Made by a program: the position numbers and the translations under genes
The notes under the pieces: model-generated
Databases searched by the model: none
What the model was told of the DNA's origin: nothing
Seen by the model: the letters and a program-made list of their open reading frames with translations, nothing else
Shown here: piece after piece, positions 3 to 24,249 of the stretch
How the letters are laid out: every line of letters starts with the position of its first letter
How positions within the stretch are numbered: position 1 is the stretch's first letter
IMG/VR virus record: IMGVR_UViG_3300031578_000156
Location: 1-37,834 of that record
Source of the DNA: a virus
Direction: 5' to 3' (one strand)
Length of the DNA: 37,834 bases

Positions 3-2894
3 TGGAAGGAAGGCGGACATTTAAAAGGTAGATATTATAATGGTGCTTTATGGGCTGCAAATACTGAGCAAACTATTGATGCAACTGCCAATGCATCTAA
101 AGCTAGATTTGATCTTGAACATTGTATCTTTTTAGGATGCAAAATTGGTTTTGTTGTTTATGTTGATGGTGATGGAACAATTAAATGGTCAAGAAGAGAT
201 AATGGACCAAATTCTTCTGAATCTTGGTCTGCTCCTGTCACATTATGTGATTCTATTGAAGGTCATGATAGTGTTGGGATTGTTGCTCATGATGAAGGAG
301 TTCATTATGTACTTTGGAAATTATATAATCATATAGAATATCGAAAATTTGATGATGATAGTGATATTTGGTCTCCCGCTCTCGGTGAGGCAGCGAGTTC
401 TTGGGATCCTTCAACAATGGGCGTAGTTAAAACAACTACTATTTTTCAAATTCAAACACCTGATTCAATTGCTATAGCAGATTCTATTCTTGTTAATTGG
501 GTAGGAAAGATTGGTGCAGATGATTGTGAAATTGGATGGGGTGTTTTTAAAGAAGGTGATAATTTAGAATTTATTGGTGCAAATGCTAGAATTCAACCTA
601 TAATAACAGGAAACGCTGAGATTTGTTTGAATGTTCCATTATATGCAAATGCTAGAATTCAACCTATAATAACAGTTAATGGAAGAATTAAACCAAGCAT
701 AAGTGCAGATGGAAGAATTCAACCTATAATAACAGCTAATGGAAGAATTCAACCTGTTATAAGTTCTAATGCTGAGATTTGTTTGAATGTTCCATTGTAT
801 GCTGTTGCAAGAATTCAACCATGTATAAGTTCTAATGCTGAGATTTGTTTGAATGTTCCATTGTATGCTGTTGCAAGAATTCAACCTGTTATAAGTTCTA
901 ATGCTGAGATTTATTCGAATACTTTATTATATGCAAATGCTAGAATTCAACCTGTTATAAGTTCTAATGCTGAAATTTGTTCGAATGTTCCATTATATGC
1001 CATTGCAAGAATTCAACCTGTTATAAGTTCTAATGCTGAGATTTGTTTGAATGTTCCTTTGTATGCAGATGGAAGAATTCAACCTGCTATAAGTTCTAAT
1101 GCTGAGATTTGTTTGAATGTTCCATTATATGCTGTTGCAAGAATTCAACCATGTATAAGTTCTAATGCTGAGATTTGTTTGAATGTTCCATTATATGCTG
1201 TTGCAAGAATTCAACCATGTATAAGTTCTAATGCTGAGATTTATTCGAATACTTTATTATATGCAAATGCTAGAATTCAACCTGTTATAAGTTCTAATGC
1301 TGAAATTTGTTCGAATGTTTCATTATATGCCATTGCAAGAATTCAACCTGTTATAAGTTCTAATGCTGAGATTTGTTTGAATGTTCCTTTGTATGCAGAT
1401 GGAAGAATTCAACCTGCTATAAGTTCTAATGCTGAGATTTGTTTGAATGTTCCATTATATGCTGTTGCAAGAATTCAACTATGTATAAGTTCTAATGCTG
1501 AAATTTGTTTGAATGTTCCATTGTATACTGTTGCAAGAATTCAACCATGTATAAGTTCTACTGGAAGAATAAGACCCATTATAACTTCAAATGGAGAAAT
1601 TGTTGGAAATGTTCCATTGTATGCTGTTGCAAGAATTCAATCTGTTATAAGTTCTACTGGAAGAATAAGTCCTATTATAACTTCAAATGGAGAAATTGTT
1701 GGAAATGTTCCATTGTATGCTGTTGCAAGAATTCAATCTGTTATAAGTTCTACTGGAAGAATAAGTCCTATTATAACTTCAAATGGAGAAATTGTTGGAA
1801 ATGTTCCGTTGTATGCTGTTGCAAGAATTCAACCATGTATAAGTTCTAATGCTGAGATTTGTTTGAATGTTCCATTGTATGCTGTTGCAAGAATTCAACC
1901 AAGTATTTTATCTAATGCAGAAATTTTAACAGATGGCGGGAATAAAATAATTGTAGTAGGCGGAGGGAATTATTATGATCTTTGTGAATTATATGATCAA
2001 TGGTTAGATACTTGGTGGATTAAAACAAAAATTCCAACTGGTAGGGCAGATTCAGCAAGTGGATATATAAGAGGAAAAAGACATTTTATAAGAATTAAAT
2101 ATATTAATACAAACAGTCGGATAAGACCAGTTATAGTGAGTAATGGAAAGATAGTAGGAAATGTGCCCAACTTATGCGCAATGGCTAGAATACAACCTGT
2201 TATCAGTGCAATTGGAAGAATAAGACCAGTAATAGAATCCAATGGAAGAGTGAGACCTAGTATTCCTTCGGTTGCGAAGATACAGGGAACAATACGAGCA
2301 GATGGAAGAGTAAGACCAATTATTACAGGTTTGAGTAGAATTATTCCTACAATTATGTCCAAAGGAAGAGTAAGACCTATAATAACAGCTTTAGGAAAGA
2401 TTGTAGAGAATACAAGTATAAATAGTATTGCCAGAATATGTTATGCAAAATTCGGATATGGATTGATAGCCAATAGTCATATTATTGCAAGAATACTAAA
2501 AAGAATATCTTCAAATGCTCGAATAAGGTTAATAATTGTAGCGGTAGCAAGTATACGTCCTGCAATAAAGGCCAATGGAAGAATAAGACCTGTTATAACA
2601 GCTTTGGCAAGAATTTTTCCAGGAATTACTTCCAAAGGTAGAATTAGACCAGTTATGACAGCACAAAGTAGAATAAGACCTATTATTCCCGCAGTGGCAA
2701 AGATACGACCTACAATTGGCGGAAATGCCAAGATAGTCTATGTTATTAAAGCGGTTGCAAGAATACAACCGAGTATCAAAACAGATGGAAAAATTAAAAT
2801 ACCAAAGACTGCTAATATCTCTGGAAGTGCTTATATCAGAATGGCTTGGGTTGGTGGCGAAGGTTTTCCCATTTATAATGATGTAGGTTATTAA
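3..2894 (+). CDS. Partial: propeller/kelch protein with long ARIQP/NAEI repeat array (probable virion appendage or fibre)
   Basis: The 5' end lies outside the window: this frame is open from base 3, and the ATG at 417 is internal. The first ~130 visible residues look like BNR/sialidase-type propeller blades (SWSAPV, a repeated D-x-D-G, VHYVLWKL). From about base 577 to 1925 the protein is a tandem array of short units of the form [AG]-R-I-Q-P-x-I-S-S-N and A-E-I-C-L-N-V-P-L-Y, usually alternating to give 22 residues. At 1926-2105 a single kelch-like segment interrupts (IIVVGGG, then YDQWLDTWW, then PTGR). Repeats resume, more diverged, to about 2810. The alternating-hydrophobic pattern suggests a beta-solenoid or fibrous shaft (inference). 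The same repeat occurs in the genes at 6098 and 22891. Its place before neck genes suggests a neck, collar or fibre appendage. An adhesin role is likely; the exact structure is unknown. Confidence 0.8.
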   Translation, partial: WKEGGHLKGRYYNGALWAANTEQTIDATANASKARFDLEHCIFLGCKIGFVVYVDGDGTIKWSRRDNGPNSSESWSAPVTLCDSIEGHDSVGIVAHDEGVHYVLWKLYNHIEYRKFDDDSDIWSPALGEAASSWDPSTMGVVKTTTIFQIQTPDSIAIADSILVNWVGKIGADDCEIGWGVFKEGDNLEFIGANARIQPIITGNAEICLNVPLYANARIQPIITVNGRIKPSISADGRIQPIITANGRIQPVISSNAEICLNVPLYAVARIQPCISSNAEICLNVPLYAVARIQPVISSNAEIYSNTLLYANARIQPVISSNAEICSNVPLYAIARIQPVISSNAEICLNVPLYADGRIQPAISSNAEICLNVPLYAVARIQPCISSNAEICLNVPLYAVARIQPCISSNAEIYSNTLLYANARIQPVISSNAEICSNVSLYAIARIQPVISSNAEICLNVPLYADGRIQPAISSNAEICLNVPLYAVARIQLCISSNAEICLNVPLYTVARIQPCISSTGRIRPIITSNGEIVGNVPLYAVARIQSVISSTGRISPIITSNGEIVGNVPLYAVARIQSVISSTGRISPIITSNGEIVGNVPLYAVARIQPCISSNAEICLNVPLYAVARIQPSILSNAEILTDGGNKIIVVGGGNYYDLCELYDQWLDTWWIKTKIPTGRADSASGYIRGKRHFIRIKYINTNSRIRPVIVSNGKIVGNVPNLCAMARIQPVISAIGRIRPVIESNGRVRPSIPSVAKIQGTIRADGRVRPIITGLSRIIPTIMSKGRVRPIITALGKIVENTSINSIARICYAKFGYGLIANSHIIARILKRISSNARIRLIIVAVASIRPAIKANGRIRPVITALARIFPGITSKGRIRPVMTAQSRIRPIIPAVAKIRPTIGGNAKIVYVIKAVARIQPSIKTDGKIKIPKTANISGSAYIRMAWVGGEGFPIYNDVGY
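577..1925 (+). repeat. Tandem coding repeats, 66-bp basic unit with 96-bp and 330-bp higher-order copies
   Basis: The basic unit is 66 bp (22 codons), and almost every unit contains GAATTC. The 330-bp segment 901-1230 is directly repeated at 1231-1560; comparing them by eye I find only five differences (1320, 1480, 1502, 1523, 1527). Next come three tandem 96-bp units starting near 1561, 1657 and 1753, which encode a variant unit (TGRISPIITSNGEIVGNVPL). All periods are multiples of three, so copy-number changes keep the frame. Confidence 0.95.
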
Positions 2895-2905
2895 TCGTTA
2901 AATTT

Positions 2906-2935
2906 TTGCCATTTTGTAGGATGGGGAATTAAAAT
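2906..2935 (+). promoter_or_regulatory. Possible sigma70-like promoter
   Basis: TTGCCA at 2906-2911 and TAAAAT at 2930-2935 are separated by 18 bp, in the 123-base gap before the structural gene at 3018. Each hexamer is one base from consensus. In DNA this AT-rich such matches are common, so support is modest. Confidence 0.3.
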
Positions 2936-3017
2936 ATATTTACAGAAAAAATGATGAAAGATTTAAAGAATTTATGGAGAAGAGGAAGAAATTATTATTT
3001 TAGGAGGGTAAAGGATA

Positions 3018-3875
3018 ATGGAAATTACTTATGACCACACAACTGCTACTCAGTTAGGATTTGAGAGTACAAGTCGATGGCTTGAACTTGTTTTGCCAGG
3101 TGCTGCTCGTCAAATGGATATAAGGATTTTAGATAAAGATGGAAATCTTTTAACAACGGATCCGAAATTTATAGATTTGACAGTATATGATGATGGTGAA
3201 AAGATTATATGGTCAGGTAGATATCCTTCTGAAACAACTGAAATAAAGAAACGAGAAGATGGTGCATATTTCTATCTTTTAAATGCTGGTGCAAGTCAAG
3301 CTGATTATATGTTATATTGGACGGTTTACATCGGAACAGGTTATACAAATATTGATGTTTTTCAATATGCTAAAGTTGCAAAGCCACGGGCTCTAATGTT
3401 GTTGCCAAATCTTCGCAATCAGTTGGATAAGTCAATGAAAAATGTTCATGAGACTCATGGATGGGCAGACGACCAATTGTATTTGTTATTAGAGGGCGGA
3501 GTGCAAGAAATTTGTAAGGCGAATCCCCGTGTCAATTATACTTTAGCAAATTATCCTATTGAAGAATGGTGGCAGTTGCTTATAGATTCTGCTACTTTAT
3601 TGGGATTAATATCGCAGGGCATTTTTAGCATAGATTCTGATTTACATTATACTGATCAGGGTATTTCATTTTCTGTTGAACATGCTGGTCAAATAAATAC
3701 ATATTTAGGTTTTTTAGTAACAAGATTTAATGAAAGTATTCAAAAGTTTGGATTGAGACATTATGCAAAACCAAAATTATTAATGCAGCTTCCAAGAAGA
3801 ATTTATGGCTACCAAGCGTTGGTTTCTGCAGCGCCGTATGGCGTAAGTTTTCCACGAATATTTGGAAGACAATAA
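3018..3875 (+). CDS. Virion structural protein, probable neck/connector component
   Basis: 285 residues, preceded by TAGGAGGG about 8 bases before the ATG. The N-terminal ~115 residues look like a beta-sandwich (LELVLPGAARQMDIRILDKDG, then YFYLLNAGASQADYMLYWTVYIG). The C-terminal part is mainly helical with conserved-looking segments LLPNLRNQLDKSMK, HGWADDQLYLLLEGG and NYPIEEWWQLLIDSA, ending in LVSAAPYGVSFPRIFGRQ. I recall similar proteins, annotated only as virion structural proteins, in tailed phages. The family role is uncertain. Lying upstream of tail-completion and sheath genes, a head-tail connector or neck role is the best guess, by context. Confidence 0.55.
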   Translation: MEITYDHTTATQLGFESTSRWLELVLPGAARQMDIRILDKDGNLLTTDPKFIDLTVYDDGEKIIWSGRYPSETTEIKKREDGAYFYLLNAGASQADYMLYWTVYIGTGYTNIDVFQYAKVAKPRALMLLPNLRNQLDKSMKNVHETHGWADDQLYLLLEGGVQEICKANPRVNYTLANYPIEEWWQLLIDSATLLGLISQGIFSIDSDLHYTDQGISFSVEHAGQINTYLGFLVTRFNESIQKFGLRHYAKPKLLMQLPRRIYGYQALVSAAPYGVSFPRIFGRQ

Positions 3876-3898
3876 GTTTTAGAGTCAAGGAGATCAAG

Positions 3899-4195
3899 AT
3901 GAATAAAATAGATAAGAAAGATATGTGGGTTTTGCTTTTGAGTACGGTGAGATATAGTATGGGAAGAATGACGTATATGTCTTCGCTTGCTCCTGAACTT
4001 GTTTTTCGTTATAAAGATTATCTCAATGAATATCAATTGAAACAAATAAAGGAAGAAGTTGAAAAGGAGCTTGAATGCCATAACGTAATGAAAAAAGAAA
4101 AGATTCAAGAAGATTGGTTGGGACATGAATGTGATGTAAATTCATGGATTAAATTTAAAAACGATTTGGAAGAATTATTAAAAAGAGGTGAATAA
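3899..4195 (+). CDS. Small conserved phage-type protein, unknown function
   Basis: 98 residues, with AAGGAGAT before the ATG. The N-terminal half contains DMWVLLLSTVRYSMGRMTYM, a tryptophan plus RYxxGRxTY pattern that I have seen in small phage and bacterial proteins of unknown role. The rest is amphipathic and charged (ELVFRYKDYLNEYQLKQIKEEVEKEL) and likely helical. No catalytic motif or membrane segment is convincing. Its stop TAA directly abuts the ATG of the homing endonuclease, whose ribosome binding site lies in the 3' end of this gene, so the two are probably translationally coupled. Confidence 0.6.
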   Translation: MNKIDKKDMWVLLLSTVRYSMGRMTYMSSLAPELVFRYKDYLNEYQLKQIKEEVEKELECHNVMKKEKIQEDWLGHECDVNSWIKFKNDLEELLKRGE

Positions 4196-5200
4196 ATGGC
4201 AAGTTCAAAATTCAGAGGTGTTGATTGTAATAGAGGAAAATGGAGAAGTAGGATAACGGTTTATGGAAAAAGTGTAAATCTAGGTTATTTTGAAAAAGAA
4301 GAAGATGCCGCTCATGCATATAATATAGCAAATAAAAAATATCATATAGAATTTGCTTTTTTGAAGAAATGGAAAAAACGTAGAAAAATGTCTGATGAAA
4401 ATAAACAGAAGATATCTTTGAGTTTGTTTGGAAGGAAATTTTCTATTTTACATAGAAAAAAATTGAGTGAGGCAAGAAAAGGAAGAAAATTTGGTCAATT
4501 ATCTGAAGCACACAGAGAAAAAATAGGATCAGCAAACAGAGGGAGGAAATTTACTGACGAACAGAAAAAAAGAATGAGTATTGGCCAGAAAGGAAAGAAA
4601 TTATCGAAGGAACATATAAGGAAATTATGTTTATATTCACAAAGGAAAGATGTAAGAAAAAAAATGAGTGATATGAACAAAGGACAAAAAAATCCTATGT
4701 ATGGAAAAACTCATTCGTCCGAAGCAAGAAAAAAAATAAGCGAAAGTAGTAAAAGAACATGGAATAATCCTAAACACAGAATTAAAATGTCTATGATAAT
4801 ATCAAAAGGAGTTAGGAAGAAGTGGAAAGATACAAAGTATCAAAAATTGCAAAAAATTGCAAAGAATGCAAGTCCAAACAAGCCCGAAACAACTTTAATT
4901 AACTTGTTAAACGAAGTTTTACCAGGAAAATATAAATTTGTAGGCGATGGAAGTTTTTATCCAAAAGGATGCGGTTTAAATCCTGATTTTATGAATATCA
5001 AAGGAAAGAAAAAACTAATAGAACATTTTGGTGATTGGTGGCATGGGGAAAAAATTCAAAAGAAATCCAAAAAATACCATGAGAGAGAAAGAATAAAACA
5101 TTTTCGGAATTTTGGTTATGAAACATTGGTAATTTGGGAATATGAATTAAAAGACATAAAAAAAGTTGCAAGAAAGATTATGAATTTTGATAGGAGGTAA
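4196..5200 (+). CDS. Free-standing homing endonuclease: AP2 + NUMOD3 repeats + Vsr-like nuclease
   Basis: 334 residues. Residues ~4-50 form an AP2-type DNA-binding domain (FRGVDCNRGKWRSRI, then NLGYFEKEEDAAHAYN). Residues ~60-200 are lysine-rich NUMOD3-like repeats with recurrent G-R-K-F and S-E-A-R/H-R-x-K-I motifs. Residues ~226-325 resemble the Vsr-like PD-(D/E)XK/EDxHD fold of phage homing endonucleases such as I-Bth0305I: E231 in NKPE, D264 in NPDF, then IEHFGDWWHGE, and the HFRNFGYETLVIWEYEL strand typical of Vsr-like enzymes. Such enzymes cut intron-less or intron-containing target sites and spread by recombination. It sits between structural genes with no split host gene visible, so it is free-standing. 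The sequence is more lysine- and adenine-rich than its neighbours, consistent with an incoming mobile gene. Confidence 0.85.
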   Translation: MASSKFRGVDCNRGKWRSRITVYGKSVNLGYFEKEEDAAHAYNIANKKYHIEFAFLKKWKKRRKMSDENKQKISLSLFGRKFSILHRKKLSEARKGRKFGQLSEAHREKIGSANRGRKFTDEQKKRMSIGQKGKKLSKEHIRKLCLYSQRKDVRKKMSDMNKGQKNPMYGKTHSSEARKKISESSKRTWNNPKHRIKMSMIISKGVRKKWKDTKYQKLQKIAKNASPNKPETTLINLLNEVLPGKYKFVGDGSFYPKGCGLNPDFMNIKGKKKLIEHFGDWWHGEKIQKKSKKYHERERIKHFRNFGYETLVIWEYELKDIKKVARKIMNFDRR

Positions 5201-5201
5201 A

Positions 5202-6098
5202 ATGGGATATTGGGGCAATCCACGCCAAAGGTTGGAACAATTAAAATTTTGGTCAAGAGTACGAAATGCAAACGAATTTTTATTATCTATAAATGCTTTT
5301 GTAGGATATTTATGGATTCGTAAAACTGTCGGACAGCAGTGTACTTGTGTTAAAGATATTTCTGAACAGGCCGACAAGAAATGTTCAATTTGTTATGGAA
5401 CAAAAATAGTAGGTGGATATGAACGATGGGGTTTTAATACAGTTTCTATGGATTCACAATTTGAAGGATTGGAAATAGATTCAAAATTGAGAATAAGAAC
5501 TGATTTTACTCCACATAGAATAGTTTTGGATAGAGGATGGGAGAGTGGTGAAATAATTACTCCTTATGTTGAGCCTCGACCAAATTTAGGATGGATTGGT
5601 TTTAATGCTGATGATTATGTATATGATTCAGAACATTCTGGAATAGATTATTATTGGCAGGAATATGGGAAAGATGAATGGAATTCAATAATAAATTTTC
5701 CAACTTTGGCTGTTATTGAAAGATATGTGAAATTTAAAATAGTTATACGAAGAAATAATCAAACTATAAAAAGCCCTGTTTGGGGTATGATTCAAGTAAG
5801 AAATAAAAACTTTATAAAAACTGAATTAAATCTATCAAGAGAAAGGCCTTCTCAAAGAAAAGATAGAAGTAGGGAGAAATACGGAAATTTCGAAGTGGAA
5901 GATGGATTGAAGATGTGGACAATAAATGCTCCTGTTATAGATGATAATGATTTTATAGAATTACGAACAGGATTGAGAGAAAATAAAAGATACAGAGTAA
6001 CAGGTTTTGAACAAAGCGAGCCAGGTGGAATTTTATTAAGTCAGCACATGACTTTAAGAATTTTACAACCAAATGAAATTTATTATAAGGTATTCTAA
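5202..6098 (+). CDS. Zinc-ribbon-containing virion protein (neck/tail completion region)
   Basis: 298 residues from the ATG at 5202, which has TAGGAGGT 5 bases upstream; an in-frame TTG at 5187 lies before that site and is rejected. C47-x-C49 and C61-x-x-C64, the second followed by YGTKIVGGYERWGF, look like a structural zinc ribbon. The rest is beta-rich with no enzyme motif (for example ELRTGLRENKRYRVTGFEQSEPGG). Phage structural proteins with a C-x-C...C-x-x-C-x-G-T-x-x-x-GGY element occur near head-tail joining genes, so I infer a neck or tail-completion role. The stop overlaps the next start by one base (TAATG), which implies coupling to the large kelch protein. Confidence 0.55.
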   Translation: MGYWGNPRQRLEQLKFWSRVRNANEFLLSINAFVGYLWIRKTVGQQCTCVKDISEQADKKCSICYGTKIVGGYERWGFNTVSMDSQFEGLEIDSKLRIRTDFTPHRIVLDRGWESGEIITPYVEPRPNLGWIGFNADDYVYDSEHSGIDYYWQEYGKDEWNSIINFPTLAVIERYVKFKIVIRRNNQTIKSPVWGMIQVRNKNFIKTELNLSRERPSQRKDRSREKYGNFEVEDGLKMWTINAPVIDDNDFIELRTGLRENKRYRVTGFEQSEPGGILLSQHMTLRILQPNEIYYKVF

Positions 6099-9000
6099 TG
6101 GCAACAAAGATTTGGACAACCAAAGAAGATTTTGATAGTGGCAGTTTAAACAATGTAGTAGATCATCGTAATAATGATTTACAATTGGTTTACGCCTGGA
6201 GTTTTGGGGGAGATCTAAACGAAGCTAAATATAGTATGGCAGGGGCTGGAACACAAACTGCAGGTCTTTGTTTTGGTGGCGATAAAGATGGTAATGACGC
6301 ACTTATAACAACAGAAGAATATGTTGGATCATTATGGGCATGTGCTGGAGATTTAAATACTGGTCGGCGTAATTTGTCTGGTTGTGGTACTCAAACAGCG
6401 GCGCTCAGTATTGGCGGACGTACTACTATAGATGAAGTTATCACAGAAGAATATGATGGAACATCATGGGCATGTGCTGGAGATCTAAATGTAGCCAGAT
6501 TTTGGATGGGCGGGGTTGGAACACTAACCGCTGGAATTTGTTTTGGTGGAAGAAATGGTGTTCCCACAAACTTTGATAGTACAGAAGAATATAATGGAAC
6601 ATCATGGTGTTCGGGGAATGGTTTAAGTGTAATAAAATTTGGTGTGGGTGGAGCAGGAACACAAACAGCAGCGCTTTGTTTTGGTGGTAGAAATATTGCT
6701 AGTTATGCTACAACAGAATATTACAATGGTACTTCTTGGAGTTTAGATAGTGATTTAAATAAGGCTAGAGATAGGTTGGGAGGAACAGGAACACAGTCAG
6801 TGGCTTTGAGCTTTGGTGGTTATGACGGTGTTACTTATTTAGCAAATACAGAAGAATATAATGGTTCTATATGGACAGTAGCTTCAAGTTTGAATGTGTT
6901 AAGGTATCTTTCAATGGGAGCTGGAACTCAAGAAGCATTATGTGCGGGTGGTTCCGCCGCAGTAGGTTTTAGATTAGAAAGTACAGAAGAATATTGCCCA
7001 GTAGCATCAGGAACATGGACAGTAGATTTTGATAGTGGTTATAATCTTTCAGTTTGGGGAAGTACAAAATGGGATGATTTATCATGGTTAAATGCTGGCG
7101 GAGGTAGTTGCAAGGCCAGAGTGAAGTCTGCTACTACTCAAGGCGGTTTAGTTGGTGCCACTTGGTATCCTACTGGCGGAAGTGGTTATTATGAAACACA
7201 ACCAGTAGATGTGGAGTGTCCGGACAATAGATGGTATAGATTAGAAGTAACTTTAATAGAAGGTAGTACCCCACAAATAGAGCAAGTGGGTCAAGATTAC
7301 AGTCCTCCCTTGCCAACAATTATTGGAAATGCAAATATTCAAACTTATATATTTTATACAATAGGGGCAAATGGAAGAATTCAACCTGTTATAACTGCAA
7401 ACAGTGAGATTAGTTTAAATGTTCCATTGTATGCAAATGGAAGAATTCAACCAATAATAAATGCAGATGGGAGAATAAGTCCTGTTATATCAGCAAATGG
7501 AGAAATTGTTGGAAATGTTCCATTGTATGCTGTTGCAAGAATTCAACCATGTATAAACGCTGATGGAAGAATAAGATCTGTATTACCCGCTGTTGGAAGA
7601 ATTCAACCTATTATAAGTGGAGACGGTAGAATATGTCCCATAATAATTGCCAATGGAAGAATTCTTTATATGATTACAGCTAGTGGTAGAATAAGTCCGA
7701 TCATTACAGCGACAGCAGTAATTTTTCCAAGCATAAGAGCTAGTGGAAGAATTCAACCTACTATAAGTTCTAATGCTGAGATTTGTTTGAATGTTCCATT
7801 GTACGCCGTAGCAAGAATTCAACCTGTTATAACTGGCAATGGAAGAATTCAACTTATAACAACAGCTAGTGCAAGAATTGCACCATCTATAGGTGGTAAT
7901 GCAGAAATTGCTTTAAATGTTTCATTGTATGCAAATGGCAGGATAAGACTTCCAAATTATTCAAGTTATACTATTAATGCACTTGGAAGAATTATTGCAG
8001 AAAGACGAACAAAATTATTTATAAGCTCTGATGTAAAAGAAAATATTTTATTATATCAACGATATCAAGATTTAAGAGGTTTGGTAGTAGATGAGAATTT
8101 TTATACTAGGGATGGATATGTAGTTCCTCGCAAGAGAGGAAGAACTAATTTAGGAAAATATTTGTTTGCATTACAGAGTCCGTTTTTCGCACAAACAGTA
8201 TGGTCAGTGAATTTAAACAGTTCTTATCAATTTGATATTTTAACTGATGCAGTTGGAATAGCTCCTTTTAGAATGGCATTAGCAAGAGGAGAGAATAGAA
8301 TTGATGTAACTCGTAAAGAAACTAAAGTAGAATTGTTAGAAATACATCCTACAACCAGAACAAACATTACTCCTTTTGCAAAAACAGCAAGTATGATACA
8401 GAAAGAAACTTTTGTGATAAAGGATGTGAGTGGACAAAAAACAAGATTATTGGATAGTGAATATTCGTTTGTTAATACTAGTTATATTAAAATTGTAAGT
8501 TCTGCATACGATGCGTCTGCTATATATACAATTTATTATGTGGTAATAAATCCAGGAGAATCTGAACCAGAAAAAAGAACGTATACTTCGTGGGTGAGAA
8601 GTTTAAATTATGTAACATGGTTTGGAGCGTATTCTGAAGAATTAATGTCAATAGACGATTCTTCTGATGAAACTAAAGATGATACTTATTTGAAAACTGC
8701 TACACATCAGAGTTTGATAGATAATTTTGGAGCAACTTTAGCACGTACAGAACCTGATTCAAAATGGACAGTAGATGGTTATCGGGAGATTTTAGAAGAG
8801 TATTATCATTCATATTTAAGATCTTCAACAACTCAAAAAGGTGTTAAAGATGGAATTGGAAATATAGTAACAATTCCTCCTAAATTGGAAAGTTATCAAA
8901 ATTACAAAAAATGGATTTTGGGATGGCAATGGCTTCCTACTAGGGAATTAAATGTTAATCCTATATCAGGATTTCCTGATGGATGGGTAATTAGTGGAGG

Positions 9001-9949
9001 AACATGTGAGGATTCAAATAATAAACTTTTTGGTAATAATGCGCTAAAAATCACCGTTTCAAGTGGTGCTACTGAAGTAATTATCGAATCTAATGCAATT
9101 TCGACATGGAAACGATTTATAAATCGAAATTGGAGATTGAGAGGATGGTTATGTAAAGAAAGTGGACCAACACTAGGTATCAAACTTGGAATATCCGAAG
9201 ATGGTGGAAATTCATGGAATTGGAATTCTCAAACTTTGACAAGTACATATAAAAGATTTACTTTTTCTAGACATGTTAGTAAATATGCTACGAATATCCG
9301 AATAAGATTTAAAATTACTGGACCAATAGCTGGAAAGATTATTTATCTGAATTGGCCATCTCTGGAAGAAATGAGAGATAAATGTTTGCATGTGGGATCT
9401 TCATCCTACTATCCTGAGACAATGAATTATATTCCTGCTACTTATGTAAATGCATACACATTTACAGTAGGAGGAAATAGAGTAGCGGAATTTACATATT
9501 TGAGAGACGTATGTGCAAATTGTGGAGTTGATGATATAAAATATGGTAAGGTATCCCAAAGTTCGTACGTGGTTGCTACAGACATTACAACAGTTTTGTT
9601 GACAACAAGTATTTTAACTTCTAATTTGACAGATGTTAAATTTACAGTTAATCCTGTTTATTGGTCAACTGTGCCAAGAAGTAAAGCAAAATCGTATCAT
9701 GGGTTTAGAGTATTTTGTTGGGGAATTCATACTTTGACAGAGCAGGAAAAGAGATTAGTAGGATTTGTATCATCTGGTGGGATCAATGTTATGAATCCTG
9801 GAACAGGACATCCGTTTTACATCAAATCAGCAGAAGCGATTTTAGAACTAGTAGAGGAAGATGATTATAGAATTTATAGTTCTTATGATAATTTGAAAGC
9901 AGGACAGAAAACAAACATGGAAGTGGTGAAACGAGAGGATATTGTATAA
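6098..9949 (+). CDS. Large kelch-propeller + ARIQP repeat + carbohydrate-binding-like virion protein
   Basis: 1283 residues. Residues ~25-300 hold about six kelch-like blades of the form TEEYNGTSW...LNxAR...G-x-GTQTAALCFGG, a motif common in marine-type phage fibres. Residues ~305-405 form a beta-rich linker domain (GGGSCKARVKSATTQGGLVG). Residues ~410-630 carry the same ARIQP/NAEI repeats as the gene at the window start, with nearly identical DNA tracts. Residues ~640-940 are a unique region. Residues ~948-1090 resemble a jelly-roll carbohydrate-binding module (GFPDGWVISGGT, SEDGGNSW, YKRFTFSR, KIIYLNWPSLEE). The last ~190 residues are again unique. Placed between neck and tail-completion genes and coupled to the zinc-ribbon gene, it is probably a neck-attached or collar-region appendage that binds sugars (inference). 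A general tail fibre is the alternative. Confidence 0.75.
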   Translation: MATKIWTTKEDFDSGSLNNVVDHRNNDLQLVYAWSFGGDLNEAKYSMAGAGTQTAGLCFGGDKDGNDALITTEEYVGSLWACAGDLNTGRRNLSGCGTQTAALSIGGRTTIDEVITEEYDGTSWACAGDLNVARFWMGGVGTLTAGICFGGRNGVPTNFDSTEEYNGTSWCSGNGLSVIKFGVGGAGTQTAALCFGGRNIASYATTEYYNGTSWSLDSDLNKARDRLGGTGTQSVALSFGGYDGVTYLANTEEYNGSIWTVASSLNVLRYLSMGAGTQEALCAGGSAAVGFRLESTEEYCPVASGTWTVDFDSGYNLSVWGSTKWDDLSWLNAGGGSCKARVKSATTQGGLVGATWYPTGGSGYYETQPVDVECPDNRWYRLEVTLIEGSTPQIEQVGQDYSPPLPTIIGNANIQTYIFYTIGANGRIQPVITANSEISLNVPLYANGRIQPIINADGRISPVISANGEIVGNVPLYAVARIQPCINADGRIRSVLPAVGRIQPIISGDGRICPIIIANGRILYMITASGRISPIITATAVIFPSIRASGRIQPTISSNAEICLNVPLYAVARIQPVITGNGRIQLITTASARIAPSIGGNAEIALNVSLYANGRIRLPNYSSYTINALGRIIAERRTKLFISSDVKENILLYQRYQDLRGLVVDENFYTRDGYVVPRKRGRTNLGKYLFALQSPFFAQTVWSVNLNSSYQFDILTDAVGIAPFRMALARGENRIDVTRKETKVELLEIHPTTRTNITPFAKTASMIQKETFVIKDVSGQKTRLLDSEYSFVNTSYIKIVSSAYDASAIYTIYYVVINPGESEPEKRTYTSWVRSLNYVTWFGAYSEELMSIDDSSDETKDDTYLKTATHQSLIDNFGATLARTEPDSKWTVDGYREILEEYYHSYLRSSTTQKGVKDGIGNIVTIPPKLESYQNYKKWILGWQWLPTRELNVNPISGFPDGWVISGGTCEDSNNKLFGNNALKITVSSGATEVIIESNAISTWKRFINRNWRLRGWLCKESGPTLGIKLGISEDGGNSWNWNSQTLTSTYKRFTFSRHVSKYATNIRIRFKITGPIAGKIIYLNWPSLEEMRDKCLHVGSSSYYPETMNYIPATYVNAYTFTVGGNRVAEFTYLRDVCANCGVDDIKYGKVSQSSYVVATDITTVLLTTSILTSNLTDVKFTVNPVYWSTVPRSKAKSYHGFRVFCWGIHTLTEQEKRLVGFVSSGGINVMNPGTGHPFYIKSAEAILELVEEDDYRIYSSYDNLKAGQKTNMEVVKREDIV
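7327..7990 (+). repeat. ARIQP/NAEI coding repeat array inside the large kelch protein
   Basis: Encodes about twenty short beta-like units (ANGRIQPVI, ADGRISPVI, SNAEICLNVPLY). The DNA around 7495-7555 and 7763-7803 is nearly identical to units in the array at 577-1925, over 5 kb away. The copy order differs and units here are more varied, so this array is older or less homogenised. Confidence 0.9.
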
Positions 9950-9994
9950 CATTATTGATAAAATTGTGTATAATACATTGTGGGAGATATTATA

Positions 9995-13714: not shown

Positions 13715-13744
13715 TTTTTATGAAAATGAATTTGGAGGTGAAAC

Positions 13745-14213: not shown

Positions 14214-14559
14214 ATCTGATCCAAATGTAAAGAAAATGAATAAAGCTCAATGGATTTTTGAATATGAGGGATATGTAAGAAAAAGAAAAAAATTCCTAAG
14301 AGATCTAGGATTGCTTTTGGTAGGAGAAAAAGCTCAAAAATTGGATATAGATGAGGAAATGGAATTACTTCCATTAGCGTACGTTTTGAATCCAGAAGTA
14401 ATGAATGAGTATATTAAGAAAACAGAAGAAGAGGAAGAAGGTTTGAATATGAATGATGAAGAATACGAGAATATGTTGAAACGGTATGAAGAATCTGGTT
14501 ATAAACTTGATGATATTGAATTGATGGAAGAAAAAAATGAACAGGAGAAAAATAAATAA
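14152..14559 (+). CDS. Tail assembly chaperone, -1 frame extension (T part of gpGT-type)
   Basis: This frame is entered by -1 slippage: after the slip the next codons are CTC CTA AAC GAG, with no stop until 14559 (135 codons). The ATG at 14176 has only GGAAG two bases upstream, so independent initiation looks poor. The extension is highly charged and acidic near the end (KKTEEEEEGLNMNDEEYENMLKRYEESGYKLDDIELMEEKNEQE), with a helical first half (MNKAQWIFEYEGYVRKRKKFLRDLGLLLVG). In the known system the T domain binds tube subunits while the G domain binds the tape measure. The frameshift fixes the G to GT ratio. Confidence 0.85.
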   Translation, partial: LLNEPSWKMKSNILASKGVLVSDPNVKKMNKAQWIFEYEGYVRKRKKFLRDLGLLLVGEKAQKLDIDEEMELLPLAYVLNPEVMNEYIKKTEEEEEGLNMNDEEYENMLKRYEESGYKLDDIELMEEKNEQEKNK

Positions 14560-16593: not shown

Positions 16594-16596
16594 ACA

Positions 16597-17289: not shown

Positions 17290-17299
17290 AGGATAGAAA

Positions 17300-19105
17300 A
17301 TGGAACAAGAATTTTTTCCAGAGGGCGGATGTGTTCGTACAGGCGAACCTTCATATAGAGTTTTTATATTTACAAAAGAAGTGACTGAGGATGTGAAAAG
17401 TGTAAACATAACATGGTCTACAATTGATTCGACTTGTTCTATTGAATTGACAAATCCTCGTGAAAAATGGATTATAACTGAAAATAATCTTAATGGAATA
17501 TGGAGAGAGGATGAAAAAATAAAGAAAGCAATTTATAAAAGAAAGAAAACATTTATAGTTACAAAAAAATCTAAAAGTACTATTAATAAAAATGAAAATC
17601 CAAAAAGTGAATCTTCTACTACTCATACTGAGGCGGGAACTTGTGTTTATGATTTATATGAAGGAGATAGTGTTATTTCTTGTGGTGATACTGTTAGAGT
17701 ATATTTAAAAGATCCGTTTTCTGATTATTGGTACAGAGGATTTACAGGATATGCTTCTCCTGTAACAGATTCTTACAGCGCAGATGCAGATCATTTTATT
17801 TTAACAGTTCATTGTGAAGATACAAAAAGATGGATAAGAGCTACAAGATTAGGATGGGGAGTTTGGGGTTCAGATAGTTCTGTTAGTTATGCAACACAGG
17901 AAGAAACAGAAAAAGCAACTGTTTCTTCTATATGGCAGTATGTTGCACCTGGTAAATCATTGGAAGAATTAGTAGTTTGGTTAATTACTGGAAAAACTCT
18001 TGATACTTCTGTTATTGGTGATATGCAAATAAAACCAGACAAAGAAGAGGAATTAGAATTACGTTGTGGGAATTTTACATTAGGAAAAAGATGGGTTATA
18101 AAAAATAACAAAGATGTTGAAGATGCTCAATTATTTTTATTTAATGAATGCTTGAGAGTACAAGGAAAAGGCGCAGATGCCGAAGATCTTATTACTGAAG
18201 AAGGCAAATTTGTTACTCGTGCGGGAAGTGGAGAAAATGCAAAGAAGGTAGATGATGGAAGTCTTTATAATGTAGATGGTCAGATTCATGTAATGATTCC
18301 AGAATATTTGACATATACTGGAGAAGATGAAGAAGAAGGAGGTATTTATTTAAAACCGCATACAATGCTTCAAGAAATTGGATATAGAGACGAATATTCA
18401 TCCAGACTAGGTATAATTCAAGATTGGGCAGAAACAGTAGAATTTAAATTTTATGCATTGCCAAATGGCGATGTTTTGTTAGAATTTCCACAATATGATT
18501 TTAGACCTGAAGATTATGGTAAAGCTAATGATTCAATAACAAAAGGTAAAGAAGTTTTTAAAGTGACAAATAAAGAAATTATGGGATGGGATATTACCGA
18601 AGATGATGGAGGCATTGATACTCTTTTTGTAGTAGGAGGTTCTTTAGAACAATATTTTAAAAAAATAGGTGATTCAGCTCAATTAAGCGGGAGAATAGGA
18701 ATATCTGGAAAAGAAAGTCTTACTAAAAGATTTGGTTGGAGATGTAGAAATTTAGATGCTCCTTTAGTTACTTCAAAAGAAGGTTGTGTATTATTGGCTG
18801 AAGCACTTTTGAATAGATCATTTTCTGAAGCAAAAACAATGAATGTGGATTGTACTGCTCGATATGAAGTTTGGCCAGGAAGGCCTTATTTAGTGGAAGG
18901 AAGAAGAGTTTTAGGATATTGTACTTCTATAGAACATACTATTGTATGGGGATCTCAATTAAAGACTAAAATAAATCTAAGCTATTTAAGGGGTTGGAAT
19001 ACAGAAAAAGAAGAATGGACTACAATAGGAGGAAAGTTAATAAGTGAAGAAAGACGATATTTGGATTATAGTAAATTATATTCTTCTGAGAAGAAAGGAA
19101 TATAA
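17300..19105 (+). CDS. Baseplate hub protein (gpD/XkdQ/gp27-like)
   Basis: 601 residues, with an AGAGGAT ribosome binding site. The region DTVRVYLKDPFSDYWYRGFTGYASPVTDSYSADADHFILTVHCEDTKRWI matches the hub pattern of a short field-like beta domain that sets the centre of the baseplate. Residues ~70-110 form a lysine-rich, low-complexity insert (KKTFIVTKKSKSTINKNENPKSES). The C-terminal domain contains SFSEAKTMNVDCTARYEVWPGRPYLVEGRRVLGYCTSIEHTI, the hub-type tail. It precedes the spike gene, as expected. Longer than P2 gpD (387 residues), mainly through the internal region ~200-420. Confidence 0.7.
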   Translation: MEQEFFPEGGCVRTGEPSYRVFIFTKEVTEDVKSVNITWSTIDSTCSIELTNPREKWIITENNLNGIWREDEKIKKAIYKRKKTFIVTKKSKSTINKNENPKSESSTTHTEAGTCVYDLYEGDSVISCGDTVRVYLKDPFSDYWYRGFTGYASPVTDSYSADADHFILTVHCEDTKRWIRATRLGWGVWGSDSSVSYATQEETEKATVSSIWQYVAPGKSLEELVVWLITGKTLDTSVIGDMQIKPDKEEELELRCGNFTLGKRWVIKNNKDVEDAQLFLFNECLRVQGKGADAEDLITEEGKFVTRAGSGENAKKVDDGSLYNVDGQIHVMIPEYLTYTGEDEEEGGIYLKPHTMLQEIGYRDEYSSRLGIIQDWAETVEFKFYALPNGDVLLEFPQYDFRPEDYGKANDSITKGKEVFKVTNKEIMGWDITEDDGGIDTLFVVGGSLEQYFKKIGDSAQLSGRIGISGKESLTKRFGWRCRNLDAPLVTSKEGCVLLAEALLNRSFSEAKTMNVDCTARYEVWPGRPYLVEGRRVLGYCTSIEHTIVWGSQLKTKINLSYLRGWNTEKEEWTTIGGKLISEERRYLDYSKLYSSEKKGI

Positions 19106-19108
19106 CTA

Positions 19109-20548
19109 ATGAGAAATTTATCTCCAGGAGAAGCAGCAAGTTGGGAAAAAAGAGTAATAAAGGATCCTTATAATAAACTGGTTGAAGGTATTATTACTAA
19201 TGTTTTTACTGATACTGGTTATGCAACGGTGAGAATTCTTCAACATGTGGGAGTAGAAAAGGATTGTCGAATCGCCTTTCAAAGTATAGGAGCTTTTTGT
19301 AATTGTAGAGTTATGCCATGTCAAGGTGATATGGTTTTAGTTGCATATACTAGAGGAAATAGACCAGAAATTATAGGATATGTTTCTCCGACTAAATCTA
19401 AAGTAATGAATAGTTCAGGAAAGATGGATGAAGATCAAAGCAGAGGAGGTTATTATCAATTAATAAAAGCTTCGCAAGATGGGGAAGAATGGGAAGTTGT
19501 TTCTCCAGGTGGAAATGGTAGTAAAAAACCCTGGAAACAAAAAATTGTTTTTCGAAGAATTGAACAAGGAGAATTTAATTATAAGAGCGGTGCTCCCCAT
19601 TATCCAGGCGGTGCAGAAATATATGGAAATAGAATGGGAAATTTATATTTATACGGAGGACCTGCAGTTTTAATAAAATTATTAAGAGATGCAAATGAAA
19701 ATCAACAATATGCAGATTTATTTAGAAGAAGAGATAATGATTCTGGATTAGGTAGTTGTTCAATAGAAGAACGATTTGGAACAGTAAAAAGAAAAGTAGA
19801 TACAATGAATATTACTTCACTTGAAGAAGAATGGCCAATTCCAGTAGGAGGTTGGAAAGGAAGTTGGAAATCGACTACAGAATCGGCGAAAGAATATTGT
19901 TTAAAAATAAAAAGAAAAGTTGGGATGGGAAGTGCTTCAACTCATAAGAATTTGATAGAAATTAAATACGGAGATGTTATAGATAATAAAGGATTGGTCG
20001 AATATAACCCAAAAACTAAAAAAGAAGTTAGAGCCAAACTATCAGTTTTTGATGAAGATGATCAGAGTGGAAAAAATTGTACAACTTTTAAAATTGACAA
20101 AGCTGGAAATGTTTATGTAAGACAGATGTTAAAAGCGACAGATTTTTCGATAATAGGATTAGCAGCGACATTTTGGACTCAATTTAAAAATTGGACTGCT
20201 TATATAACTGAAAATAAAAAACAATATATTTTAAAAGATGATTTAAAAATGGTTGGGGGAAGTCAGACAAATATAGTTTTAAAGAAAAGCATAAATTTTA
20301 TAGGTAAACAGAAAACAGATATTGTATGCGGAAAATGGGAAGTAATGGCTTTAACTGCAGAAATAAGAGCTATGTCAGTTAAACTAGGAATGGGAAGTTT
20401 TCAGAAATTAGTGAATGAGACTTTTTTAACAAATTTATACAATACGCATACACATCCTGGTGTTTTTCCAGGGCCTAGTGTAACAGGACCTCCTATAATT
20501 CCAGGAATTCCATTGGTACATACAACAATTAATACTGAGGCGGGATAA
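19109..20548 (+). CDS. Baseplate spike protein (gpV/gp5-type)
   Basis: 479 residues, AAAGGA upstream. The N-terminal ~100 residues form an OB-fold-like module (VEGIITNVFTDTGYATVRILQHV, then GDMVLVAYTRGNRPEIIGYV), as in gpV and gp5 spikes. The middle is beta-rich, and the C-terminal half is a repetitive beta-helix-like stretch (KMVGGSQTNIVLKKSINFIGKQKTDIV). The end bears NTHTHPG with H447 and H449, followed by GPSVTGPP. Known phage spikes (P2 gpV, phi92 gp138) coordinate iron at their tip through an HxH pair, so a metal-bound tip is likely. The spike punctures the outer envelope when the sheath contracts. Confidence 0.8.
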   Translation: MRNLSPGEAASWEKRVIKDPYNKLVEGIITNVFTDTGYATVRILQHVGVEKDCRIAFQSIGAFCNCRVMPCQGDMVLVAYTRGNRPEIIGYVSPTKSKVMNSSGKMDEDQSRGGYYQLIKASQDGEEWEVVSPGGNGSKKPWKQKIVFRRIEQGEFNYKSGAPHYPGGAEIYGNRMGNLYLYGGPAVLIKLLRDANENQQYADLFRRRDNDSGLGSCSIEERFGTVKRKVDTMNITSLEEEWPIPVGGWKGSWKSTTESAKEYCLKIKRKVGMGSASTHKNLIEIKYGDVIDNKGLVEYNPKTKKEVRAKLSVFDEDDQSGKNCTTFKIDKAGNVYVRQMLKATDFSIIGLAATFWTQFKNWTAYITENKKQYILKDDLKMVGGSQTNIVLKKSINFIGKQKTDIVCGKWEVMALTAEIRAMSVKLGMGSFQKLVNETFLTNLYNTHTHPGVFPGPSVTGPPIIPGIPLVHTTINTEAG

Positions 20549-20549
20549 A

Positions 20550-21023
20550 ATGGCTGGAAAACCCTTTGATGAATGTTTCTATGATTTATTACGAGCTTTG
20601 GCCGTTGATGAACTTGCAAGTTTAAAACAATATCTTCAAGATTCTAAAGGATTGATTTCTCATGAAATAAATGATATAGGTTTTAAAATATCAAGAATTG
20701 ATGATTGGCAATCAACTCTTCAAGGTGAATTAGGTAGAATAGAGAATAAGGTTAAAAAATATGCAGATCAATACGGAGCAATGCCTTTTGCAGATTTTAT
20801 TGATTGTATAGATAGTGGAAATATGGCGGATGATATGCGGTCAATGATGGAAGGATATCTTGATAAATATTACGATTTAAAATACAATTTAATAAGTTCT
20901 ACGAGTATTCAAACTTATTGGGAAAATATTGATTTATATAGAAAAGATTTAGAATCCAAAATAACAGACTATATTGAATCTATAGATAGCATTTTAGCAG
21001 AAAAACTTACAGGAGTCTTTTAA
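20550..21023 (+). CDS. Unknown helical baseplate-region protein
   Basis: 157 residues between spike and gp25-like genes, overlapping the next start by one base (TAATG). It is predicted mostly helical and coiled-coil-like (ELASLKQYLQDSKGLISHEIND, then TLQGELGRIENKVKKYADQY, and RKDLESKITDYIESIDSILAEKL). No recognised family. PBSX-type clusters have a small gene (xkdR) at this spot, but I see no sequence evidence that it is related. Most likely a baseplate or spike-assembly protein. Confidence 0.65.
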   Translation: MAGKPFDECFYDLLRALAVDELASLKQYLQDSKGLISHEINDIGFKISRIDDWQSTLQGELGRIENKVKKYADQYGAMPFADFIDCIDSGNMADDMRSMMEGYLDKYYDLKYNLISSTSIQTYWENIDLYRKDLESKITDYIESIDSILAEKLTGVF

Positions 21024-21460
21024 TGACTAAAACTTTTAAAATATCAGATATAACACGGACAGGTATTGGTGATGTTGAATTGTCCAATCAAGGACAACCA
21101 GAAATTTTGGAAAACAGGGATAAGTTGATACAGGATATATTGGAAATATTGTTAGTAATGGAAGGTCAGCGTGATGTGCCAAGAACGTCTCCAGAATTTG
21201 GTTCTAAAATATATAAAATTTTGGGATATCCACTTCCAGCAGGAAGTTTAGAAACTTTATTGAGAGGTGCAATTGATTCTGCTATAGTGAAATTAAAAAC
21301 AATGCAAGGAGAAAAAATAAATTTATCAAAAGAAGAACATATTTTTAAAATAACTTCATTACAAATTAAAAAAGAACAAAACGTGCTAGGATACAGATTT
21401 CATTTGGCTATTGATACTTATGATAAACGTGTGGTAACAATTGAAGGAACTTTAATCTAG
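21023..21460 (+). CDS. Baseplate wedge protein, gp25/gpW-like
   Basis: 145 residues. This is the gp25-like family position, and the sequence has the expected features: RDKLIQDILEILLVMEGQRDVPRTSPEFGSKIYKILG matches the family helix and the E-x-R-x-x-R/P-E-F-G turn of gp25-like wedge proteins. The C-terminal beta strand pair (YRFHLAIDTYDKRVVTIEG) is typical. gp25-like proteins initiate sheath assembly on the baseplate. The gene is short and complete. Confidence 0.85.
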   Translation: MTKTFKISDITRTGIGDVELSNQGQPEILENRDKLIQDILEILLVMEGQRDVPRTSPEFGSKIYKILGYPLPAGSLETLLRGAIDSAIVKLKTMQGEKINLSKEEHIFKITSLQIKKEQNVLGYRFHLAIDTYDKRVVTIEGTLI

Positions 21461-21469
21461 GAGATTATA

Positions 21470-22876
21470 ATGGCTGTCTTAAAATATACAAGAGAAGAAA
21501 TAATTGCAAGATTAAAAAAAGCTATTCAAGATTATGATTCTAATATGGATGTTGATTACGGTCCTGTGAAGGATTTAGTAATTGATCCAATATCAGAAGA
21601 ATTAAGATTGGTAAATGATAATATTTATCATGTTCATAGAATACAATCTCTTTTAAATTCAACAGAAATGGATGACGAAGAATTGGATAGGTTAGCTTAT
21701 AATTGGCAAATTGTTAGAAAAGGTGGAACTCAGTCAACAGGTACGGTATGGTTTCAATGTTCATCCCCACCTTTGTTGGATATGGAAATTCCTTTGAATA
21801 CGGTAACATCAACAAGTAATAATACAAATCCAATTAAATTTGTTACTACAGAAGTTAAGGTGTTTAGAGCTTCTTATGCTGCATCCTATAAAAATGTAGC
21901 AGAAGATGTTTATGAATTGGCTGTTCCAGTAAGAGCTTTAAATCCAGGATTGAATACTAATGTTGCAGCGGGAAGTATTTCAGTTTTATCATCTAATGTT
22001 TCTTATTTTACGAATGTTGTTAATAAAGAAGTGACTGCTGGCGGGACAGATAGTGAAACAAACGCCCAATTAACACAACGATTATTAATGGCTTTAATGG
22101 GAATTGAAAGAGCTACAGTTCAGGGTTTGGAATTATGGTTTGAAGAACAAGATGGTGTTATTGATGCATCAGTAATTGATGCACAGGATCCTTTAATGAC
22201 AAGATCGGAATCTGGTGCGGTTGATGTTGCAATTATAGGAACAGATTATGTAGAAACACAACAAATAGAAGTTTTTAATAGATTGAGTATAATTTTAGAA
22301 AAACAACCAGTTAAATCTGTTATTTCTATTATAAGTTCTATTAAAGAATATAAAGAAGGAGTAGAATGGGTATTTGTACAAGATACAACTTCTGATTATG
22401 CCAAAAGTACTAGAGCACTAAGTAAAATAGAATGGAGAAGTATTGATACTCTTCCTGCAATGGGTGAAAGTGTTACAATAACTTATCAATATGATAAAAA
22501 AGTAGAAGATTTACAAGAATTGGTTGAAGAAGATGATAACAGATTTTTAGCAGATGTTTTAGTTAAAAGTGCTGATCAGATTTTCATCGAAGTAGCATTG
22601 AGGATAAAAGTGTATTCGAATTTTTCACAACCAAACATTAGACAATCTGTAAAAGATGTTATATATGGTTTTATAAATACTTTAAAATTAGGTGAAGATG
22701 TTGAACAAAGTGATTTAGTTTTCGAAATAAGAAAGATTGCTGGAGTAGACAATGTGGAATTGCCTTTTATTCAACTTAAAATAGATGGGCCTGGAACAGG
22801 GACATCCGATATTATTATTCGGAAAGATCAATTTGCAAGAATACAATCATCAAAGATTGAAGTTTGGTCAAGTTAA
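21470..22876 (+). CDS. Baseplate wedge protein, gpJ/gp6-like
   Basis: 468 residues, with TAGGAGAT before the ATG. It directly follows the gp25-like gene, as J genes do. The N-terminal part has the J-like features DYGPVKDLVIDPISEELRLVNDN and MDDEELDRLAYNWQIVRKGGTQSTGTV. The core has VRALNPGLNTNVAAGSIS and AGGTDSETNAQLTQRL, a typical motif. The C-terminal half contains EVALRIKVYSNFSQPNIRQSVKDVIYGF. Wedge proteins of this family form the hexameric ring that joins the hub to the fibre proteins. Confidence 0.88.
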   Translation: MAVLKYTREEIIARLKKAIQDYDSNMDVDYGPVKDLVIDPISEELRLVNDNIYHVHRIQSLLNSTEMDDEELDRLAYNWQIVRKGGTQSTGTVWFQCSSPPLLDMEIPLNTVTSTSNNTNPIKFVTTEVKVFRASYAASYKNVAEDVYELAVPVRALNPGLNTNVAAGSISVLSSNVSYFTNVVNKEVTAGGTDSETNAQLTQRLLMALMGIERATVQGLELWFEEQDGVIDASVIDAQDPLMTRSESGAVDVAIIGTDYVETQQIEVFNRLSIILEKQPVKSVISIISSIKEYKEGVEWVFVQDTTSDYAKSTRALSKIEWRSIDTLPAMGESVTITYQYDKKVEDLQELVEEDDNRFLADVLVKSADQIFIEVALRIKVYSNFSQPNIRQSVKDVIYGFINTLKLGEDVEQSDLVFEIRKIAGVDNVELPFIQLKIDGPGTGTSDIIIRKDQFARIQSSKIEVWSS

Positions 22877-22890
22877 TGCGGAGATTTTAA

Positions 22891-24249
22891 ATGCCAGTAC
22901 AAGAAAACAAAAGTTTTGTATGGACTCATAAAATTACTTTAAAAAATGCAGACGGATGGTTAAGATCTGAACAGGAGAGGATTATTTCCAGGATTATGGA
23001 AATATATCCTTGTAATAATTTTCATTTTATTCAAAGATATTCTTCTCATTGTAAAGAAAATGTAGGAAATGGAAAGATAAGAGTATGGAAAACGGCTAAT
23101 CAAAAAGCCAAAGGTTTGATTTCTAGATGTGAAGAAGCTCTTCTTTGGAGTACTGCAATAATTCAACCAGTGATTGCAGCAATTGCAAGAATACAACCTT
23201 CTATAATGGGAACAGCAAACATTGCACTAGGTCCACAAATATTTGGAAATGGCGATATTATTCAACCCCCAAACAAGATTGAGGGCGATGGGAGAATAAG
23301 TCCTGTAATTTCTGCAAGTGCTTTAATTTTTCCAGGAATTACTTGTACTGCAAGAATTCCTTATCAAAGATGGTCAATACCTTTAATGAAAGGGGATGCT
23401 AAAATAGTTTATACTTCTGAAAAAGTAGTATGTGGAAACTCCAGAATAGTGTTGGGAAATTATCCGATTAACGATGCACAGGGAAATGTTAAAATAGGAA
23501 AACTTAGGGGATGTGATTTGAAAGGTGATTTGCCTTTTACTGGATGGCGTTTAACTAGAAATGGAAGCATTGAACATTTGGTGTGGTATATGAGGGGTGT
23601 TAAACAAGAAAGATGGGTGCCGAAAGTAACGCAAATTGAAATTTGGTTTAATCCGGTTGCAGGAGATACAAATGGAGAAATATTCAGAGATACAATAGAG
23701 GATTTAATGGATTATTACACTTTTGGAAATCGCAGAGTGGATTATATTTCAGATACAAAATTTTCAATGAAGGGCGATTATACTAATCAATTATTTAAAG
23801 GAATGAAATTGCAAATCAATTCTCCAGATTTCTGTTGTAAGTTGTTTAATGATCAAATGCAAGAATTGGCATATTTTAAATGGATGATTGATAACTTTCC
23901 TTATCAAGTAGCATTATCAAAAATAAACAGTACTAATGCATTGAAAGTAAATGCAAAAATAAATGATGATTTACATGAAGTTATAGTAATAAAATCTATT
24001 TTTAATGGAACAAATACTGTAGTGGAAGTTTCCGGAGAGGCAATTAAAGATAGCGATTGTTTAATCATGAGCTGGAGGGAAAGATTTGATAGTGTAGAAG
24101 TAGAGAAAGATTACTATCCCTTTTCTACAAATGCACGTATACAGGCGTTTTTACGAACAACTGGAAAAATATTCTGGCTAGTAGGCCCACCAAATCTTCC
24201 TGGAAATGAAGAAGATTATGCATATAAAATATTGGATGTGGGAGAATAG
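22891..24249 (+). CDS. gpI-position baseplate protein with ARIQP-type repeats
   Basis: 452 residues, directly after gpJ. The N-terminal 85 residues are unrelated to known families by eye. Residues ~88-160 contain the same repeat type as the genes at 3 and 6098 (AIARIQPSIMGTANIALGP, DGRISPVISASALIFPGI). These units are more diverged and no long identical DNA tract was found. Residues ~220-415 form a mixed domain (WYMRGVKQERWVPKVTQIEIWFNP, then VDYISDTKFSMKGDYTNQLF). A last ARI-like unit lies near residue 419 (TNARIQAFLRTTGKI). Its position suggests linkage between wedge and fibres. Confidence 0.6.
   Translation: MPVQENKSFVWTHKITLKNADGWLRSEQERIISRIMEIYPCNNFHFIQRYSSHCKENVGNGKIRVWKTANQKAKGLISRCEEALLWSTAIIQPVIAAIARIQPSIMGTANIALGPQIFGNGDIIQPPNKIEGDGRISPVISASALIFPGITCTARIPYQRWSIPLMKGDAKIVYTSEKVVCGNSRIVLGNYPINDAQGNVKIGKLRGCDLKGDLPFTGWRLTRNGSIEHLVWYMRGVKQERWVPKVTQIEIWFNPVAGDTNGEIFRDTIEDLMDYYTFGNRRVDYISDTKFSMKGDYTNQLFKGMKLQINSPDFCCKLFNDQMQELAYFKWMIDNFPYQVALSKINSTNALKVNAKINDDLHEVIVIKSIFNGTNTVVEVSGEAIKDSDCLIMSWRERFDSVEVEKDYYPFSTNARIQAFLRTTGKIFWLVGPPNLPGNEEDYAYKILDVGE

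Follow-up and report, generated by a model that had tools for sequence, protein, structure and literature searches.

Three genes of a tailed phage encode proteins that share a short tandem repeat, and we consider it reasonably probable that this repeat is a β-solenoid-type stalk module which carries propeller heads in two of the proteins, and that recombination alters its length and moves units between genes. The window, i.e. the whole stretch of DNA analysed here, is a 37,834-base tailed phage fragment (IMG/VR IMGVR_UViG_3300031578_000156). It contains a tail sheath gene (PHROG 2839, 8e-17) and a Baseplate_J gene (Pfam 3e-23; PHROG_6 wedge subunit 6e-41), and the virus therefore has a contractile tail. 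The repeat proteins are encoded by the ORFs at 3-2894 (protein 1), 6098-9949 (protein 2) and 22891-24249 (protein 3), the first of which runs off the window edge so that its 5' end lies outside. Their virion locations are assigned from gene order only: proteins 1 and 2 are placed in the neck region, and protein 3 is called a wedge-region protein through the adjacency of its gene to the Baseplate_J gene. The window also holds three tandem paralogous tail genes that contain repeat families (26129-33474), the middle one apparently split into the ORFs 28453-29712 and 29788-31254, and, within the tail gene run, an ORF (25236-25922) with an end that, by eye, looks similar to a ParB-type domain.

The basic unit has ten residues and reads [A/G]-R-I-x-P-x-I-[S/T]-x-[N/D], with position 9 often being [A/S]. 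A 12-residue variant, AEICLNVPLYAV, read as A-E-I-C-L-N-V-P-L-Y-A-x, occurs in proteins 1 and 2. Units of this kind make up much of protein 1 and one block of protein 2, and the repeat periods are 10, 22, 32 and multiples thereof. For counting, we used the strict motif [AGS][RKETLN][IV]xPx[IVLM], which is present in 34, 10 and 3 copies in proteins 1, 2 and 3, respectively, as compared with means of 0.31, 0.17 and 0.06 (maxima 3, 2 and 2) in composition-shuffled versions of the same proteins, and in one copy altogether in fifteen other ORFs of the window. While three copies are thin evidence for protein 3, this protein was independently recovered by a profile made without it, from proteins 1 and 2 and the sequences of a related virus described below (23149-23259, E 2e-7; 23278-23361, E 1e-8). 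Compared with each other, the non-repeat parts of the three proteins gave no match at E<0.05. The original prediction, made from the letters of the window, that ARIQP/NAEI-type units recur in three otherwise unrelated proteins is thus confirmed by motif counts against shuffles, by the independent profile match to protein 3 and by the lack of similarity outside the repeats at this threshold. The positions of the repeat blocks and of the features around them are listed in Table 1.

Table 1. Repeat blocks, propeller-like regions and shared DNA tracts in the window.
Feature	Position	Strand	Remarks
Protein 1, visible N-terminal part	3-572	+	Sialidase/BNR-type propeller-like by eye; no Pfam or database match
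Protein 1, repeat block 1 (~43 units)	585-1922	+	Alternating 10- and 12-residue units, giving a 22-residue super-repeat
Protein 1, lone Kelch-like blade	1950-2117	+	43% identity to propeller blades of the relative, E 2e-8
Protein 1, repeat block 2	2118-2822	+	Mostly pure 10-residue units
Protein 2, Kelch-like propeller head	6194-7048	+	Six-to-seven-fold repeat of ~44 aa; PHROG_27227 module, unknown function
Protein 2, repeat block	7331-7993	+	10-residue units and four 12-residue units
Protein 2, conserved C-terminal domain	7994-9946	+	60% identical in the relative; weak match in Virus Rctr197k
Protein 3, short degenerate repeat block	23149-23460	+	Profile matches; gene adjoins Baseplate_J
Protein 3, stray pair of unit-like motifs (NARIQ..GKI) near the end	24133-24190	+	Read from the translation
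Gene 1, copies of 53-nt tract	1588-1640, 1684-1736	+	Identical to 7494-7546
Gene 2, copy of 53-nt tract	7494-7546	+	Identical to both gene 1 copies

The arrangement of the repeats becomes clearer from the syntenic relative IMG/VR 3300028837_000375 (37,038 bases), which encodes both large proteins in the gene order of the window. Here, genes for a portal with a Mu-F-like domain, a protease and the major head protein are followed by the protein 1 homologue (1344 aa), by two genes that are 71% and 58% identical to those at window 3018 and 5187, respectively, and then by the protein 2 homologue (3088 aa) and the sheath. Between the latter two conserved genes, the window carries a homing-endonuclease-like ORF (4196-5200; NUMOD3 8e-17) that is missing at the corresponding site of the relative. 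The relative's protein 1 contains Kelch propellers (Pfam Kelch_1, PF01344, 2e-21) with repeats between them, and its C-terminal block is collinear with block 2 of the window's protein 1 (40%, E 9e-45). The single blade in the window's protein 1 lies where the relative has propellers and looks like the leftover of a deleted or replaced propeller. The N-terminal domain of window protein 2 matches PHROG_27227 (1e-53) and, weakly, the Kelch region of the relative (E 9e-4), with no match in Pfam. This module is present once, at the N-terminus, in window protein 2, while the relative's protein 2 contains six PHROG_27227 stretches, followed by long blocks of 10- and 14-residue units and the C-terminal domain. 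The propeller copies in this 3088-aa protein (L038 536-9802) share 38-44% identity with the module of window protein 2, and the protein ranks with the larger modular appendage proteins.

A layout of propeller, repeats and conserved domain is therefore present in two viruses. Between these, the heads and the number of repeats differ, but the end domain of protein 2, presumed to be the virion attachment part, is retained, and we conclude that the repeats are spacers in modular proteins. This lends no support to the proposal that they may mark a distinct appendage or co-assembly system, given that in the relative they keep Kelch-type propellers apart in two large proteins that are separate from each other. 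A modular spacer-plus-head layout is the usual design of phage fibres.

We found a strict rule in the spacing of the units. Distances between successive unit anchors no more than 30 residues apart were even in 143 of 149 cases and odd in 6 across five proteins, the even ones comprising lengths of 10, 12, 14, 16 and 20; a naive binomial test gives p = 4e-35, a value that is overstated because repeat copies are related. With spacing that is nearly always even, one face stays hydrophobic, and hydrophobic or small residues account for 88% of one phase versus 29% of the other, although positions 1 and 3 are partly fixed by the anchor definition. As judged from the sequence, a constant phase over even-length units fits stacked parallel strands, in either a β-solenoid or an interdigitated β-helix. 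We rejected an antiparallel hairpin meander: with units of even length and turns of two residues, the same face would carry hydrophobic residues in one strand and polar residues in the next.

AlphaFold2 modelling of window 2487-2816, covering eleven 10-residue units of protein 1, yielded an all-β structure with about one strand per unit (pLDDT 77, pTM 0.70). This was the best of five models and the only one above 70, obtained with a unit-register alignment as input, and its confidence may be inflated because the alignment holds overlapping copies of the same repeats. For the block of protein 2, where the input was poorly aligned, pLDDT was 46. The solved folds nearest to the 2487-2816 model are mainly β-solenoids and β-helices (CsgA fibril, ice-binding proteins, bactofilin), none of them significant: the best match to a solved solenoid had E 0.02 and probability 0.14, and that of the protein 2 model E 0.09. 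A predicted model of a white spot syndrome virus protein (probability 0.99, TM-score 0.52) provided no clear lead. The strict parity and the 2487-2816 model thus point to regular β-structure rather than to disorder with no shared fold. Together with the shared units, these data support the earlier suggestion of one common and probably fibrous module. Both the regular one-sided alternation and the strand-turn repeat that characterize the β-solenoid class are present, and this fold class is likely.

The same stalk could also be trimeric, with three chains interdigitated as a β-helix of the T4 gp5 spike type instead of one solenoid per chain, and we regard this as a serious alternative with a somewhat less than even chance. 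Well-studied phage spikes are often trimeric. In addition, the units follow no fixed order of lengths, the best equal-length lag being 2 in protein 1 and 3 to 5 in the relative's protein 2, and such irregularity favours a trimer because a fixed-rung monomeric coil tolerates it less easily. Intertwined chains would also predict poorly as monomers, as the protein 2 block did, but the 2487-2816 segment was folded as a monomer with fair confidence. The T4 gp5 spike is built on the 8-residue motif VxGxxxxx (PMC4576200). Its triple-stranded β-helix resembles the present repeats in being a short regular β repeat that forms a long rod in a contractile-tailed phage, but differs in that the units here have 10, 12 or 14 residues; no tandem VxG octapeptide of the T4 type was found in the repeats, and self-identity at offset 8 is low.

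For the β-solenoid-type stalk, which we prefer, we propose the following arrangement. In its detailed fold, one β-strand followed by a turn where [N/D] meets [A/G] would make up each 10-residue unit, and the 12- and 14-residue units would be extended variants of this rung. In proteins 1 and 2, a stiff stalk, putatively one solenoid per chain, would set the β-propeller heads apart from one another and off the particle; in protein 2, the stalk would be followed by the conserved C-terminal domain, which probably attaches to the virion. By keeping presumably adhesive heads away from the particle, such stalks could allow contact with host or surface ligands, and recombination among the repeats would change stalk length and move units between genes. 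In protein 3, encoded in the wedge region, the module would be a short insertion; its block is degenerate and carries no recognisable head, and its role is the least certain part of the proposal.

The repeats of genes 1 and 2 are also related at the DNA level. Their longest exact match is 53 nt (1588 and 1684 versus 7494), whereas codon-shuffled controls, in which codons were exchanged among identical amino acids in 300 trials, gave longest matches of 27 nt on average and 51 nt at most. Likewise, codon identity in 8-mer peptides shared by the two genes is 83% versus 62% expected. These results bear out the view that near-identical tracts in the first two genes reflect exchange, seemingly by copying of DNA from one to the other. 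The longest DNA shared by gene 3 with gene 1 or gene 2 is 20 nt, the two genes of the relative have at most 17 nt in common, and the longest tract that window gene 1 or 2 has in common with the latter is at most 21 nt. The 12-residue unit is present in 17 copies in protein 1, four in protein 2, one in the relative's protein 1 and none in its protein 2. The simplest reading, drawn from two viruses only, is that the 12-residue unit is older in gene 1, from which gene 2 may have received it once the lineages of the two viruses had split. It is doubtful that exchange goes further, with gene conversion keeping a phage-specific decapeptide β-stalk unit alike across several virion genes, so that separate head/neck and baseplate appendages would co-evolve and may share assembly or length control.

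Another reading is a module for docking or co-assembly that lets the three proteins bind each other or a shared partner; in its favour are the exchange of units between two genes and the presence of one unit type in three proteins of two virion regions. We consider this unlikely, however, as the number and type of units differ greatly between the proteins and between both viruses, a constant interface sequence is missing and the protein 3 block is short and degenerate; DNA similarity alone suffices for exchange, and we saw no sign of the three proteins meeting in one structure. Similarly improbable is a spread mainly by DNA slippage and recombination of flexible linkers that are tolerated and have no defined fold. 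While the long near-identical tandem arrays in protein 1 and the DNA sharing between genes could be explained in this way, parity and the inward/outward pattern persist where DNA and protein have diverged (protein 1 block 2 and the relative), which indicates selection on structure.

In line with the original prediction, the repeat does not correspond to a named domain: the repeat blocks matched nothing credibly in Pfam, NCBIfam or PDB sequences, and literature searches returned no description of it. Matches of protein 1 to RNA_pol_Rpb2_3 and GIT_CC were discarded, since no single stretch passes alone. Searching IMG/VR with a strict DNA pattern, which was too narrow, returned nothing, and a looser pattern returned ten stretches, among which genuine repeats came only from 3300028837_000375 and from a near-identical contig. 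The latter, 3300031669_000026 (59,964 bases), comes from the same virus, is 100% identical to the window from base 3031 on and begins at this position, just past repeat gene 1. The repeats therefore probably break assemblies, and genes with such repeats may be under-represented in metagenomic collections. Phage records searched with the relative's block, the protein 2 block and protein 3 gave no match. A profile search of 793 bacterial genomes from two phyla produced two borderline short-frame matches that were not accepted, one being a frame of low complexity (ALILPVVTAP) at the end of a contig, the other showing no clear repeat ORF. Thus, in the collections covered by these narrow searches, the repeat is carried by two related viruses only. 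That it belongs to the known hexapeptide-like family PHROG_5070/PHROG_7964 of Streptococcus phages is very improbable, as the HMM matches to protein 1 (8e-15 and 9e-11) and the common N-A-x-[I/V], β-helix-like repeat are outweighed by the 6-residue units (GNARVS) of the Streptococcus example, its location near excisionase and replication genes instead of virion genes and the lack of a match in proteins 2 and 3, and we rejected these phage proteins as homologues.

Several known systems share individual features with the repeat proteins. The CsgA/curli β-solenoid, the top though non-significant structural neighbour, likewise has strand-turn units of ~10 residues, but is a polymerising amyloid and not a presumed virion stalk, and we found no sequence relation to it. 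Kelch propellers are found in other phage proteins (CBB_550/552/554, a phiERICV structural protein, kelch proteins of Brevibacillus Jimmer), some of them in virions or in tail-fibre position: CBB_552, a protein with a Kelch domain, was identified in the virion of CBB (PMC5259590), and in Paenibacillus phage phiERICV the propeller is encoded by the gene after tail protein I, i.e. in the fibre position, but without repeats of the present kind. The combination of propeller and decapeptide was seen in the window virus and its relative only. Virus Rctr197k resembles the window in its sheath (41% identity), its gene order and a distant relative of the protein 2 C-terminal domain, which there lies downstream of the baseplate genes; the repeat profile had no match over all 197 kb of this genome. 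Its protein at 100877-103240 is similar by eye to the three paralogous tail proteins of the window, and an annotated CRISPR array lies at 110803-112317 of its genome (KX853510; L021 16804-18318).

Shafts made of β-structured repeats are known from phage fibres, and Kelch heads are likewise a kind already described. New here are the unit as such, its combination with propellers and its occurrence in three virion genes, two of which appear to have exchanged DNA. Phage appendages have few known building blocks, to which a previously undescribed repeat, linked to Kelch-type propeller heads, is now added, and the two large genes provide a tangible example of units that pass from one virion gene to another. 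Should the blocks indeed be stalks, the pure ten-residue array would be a candidate for a regular module in protein design, and the number of repeats would be a simple dial for the reach and valency of host contact.
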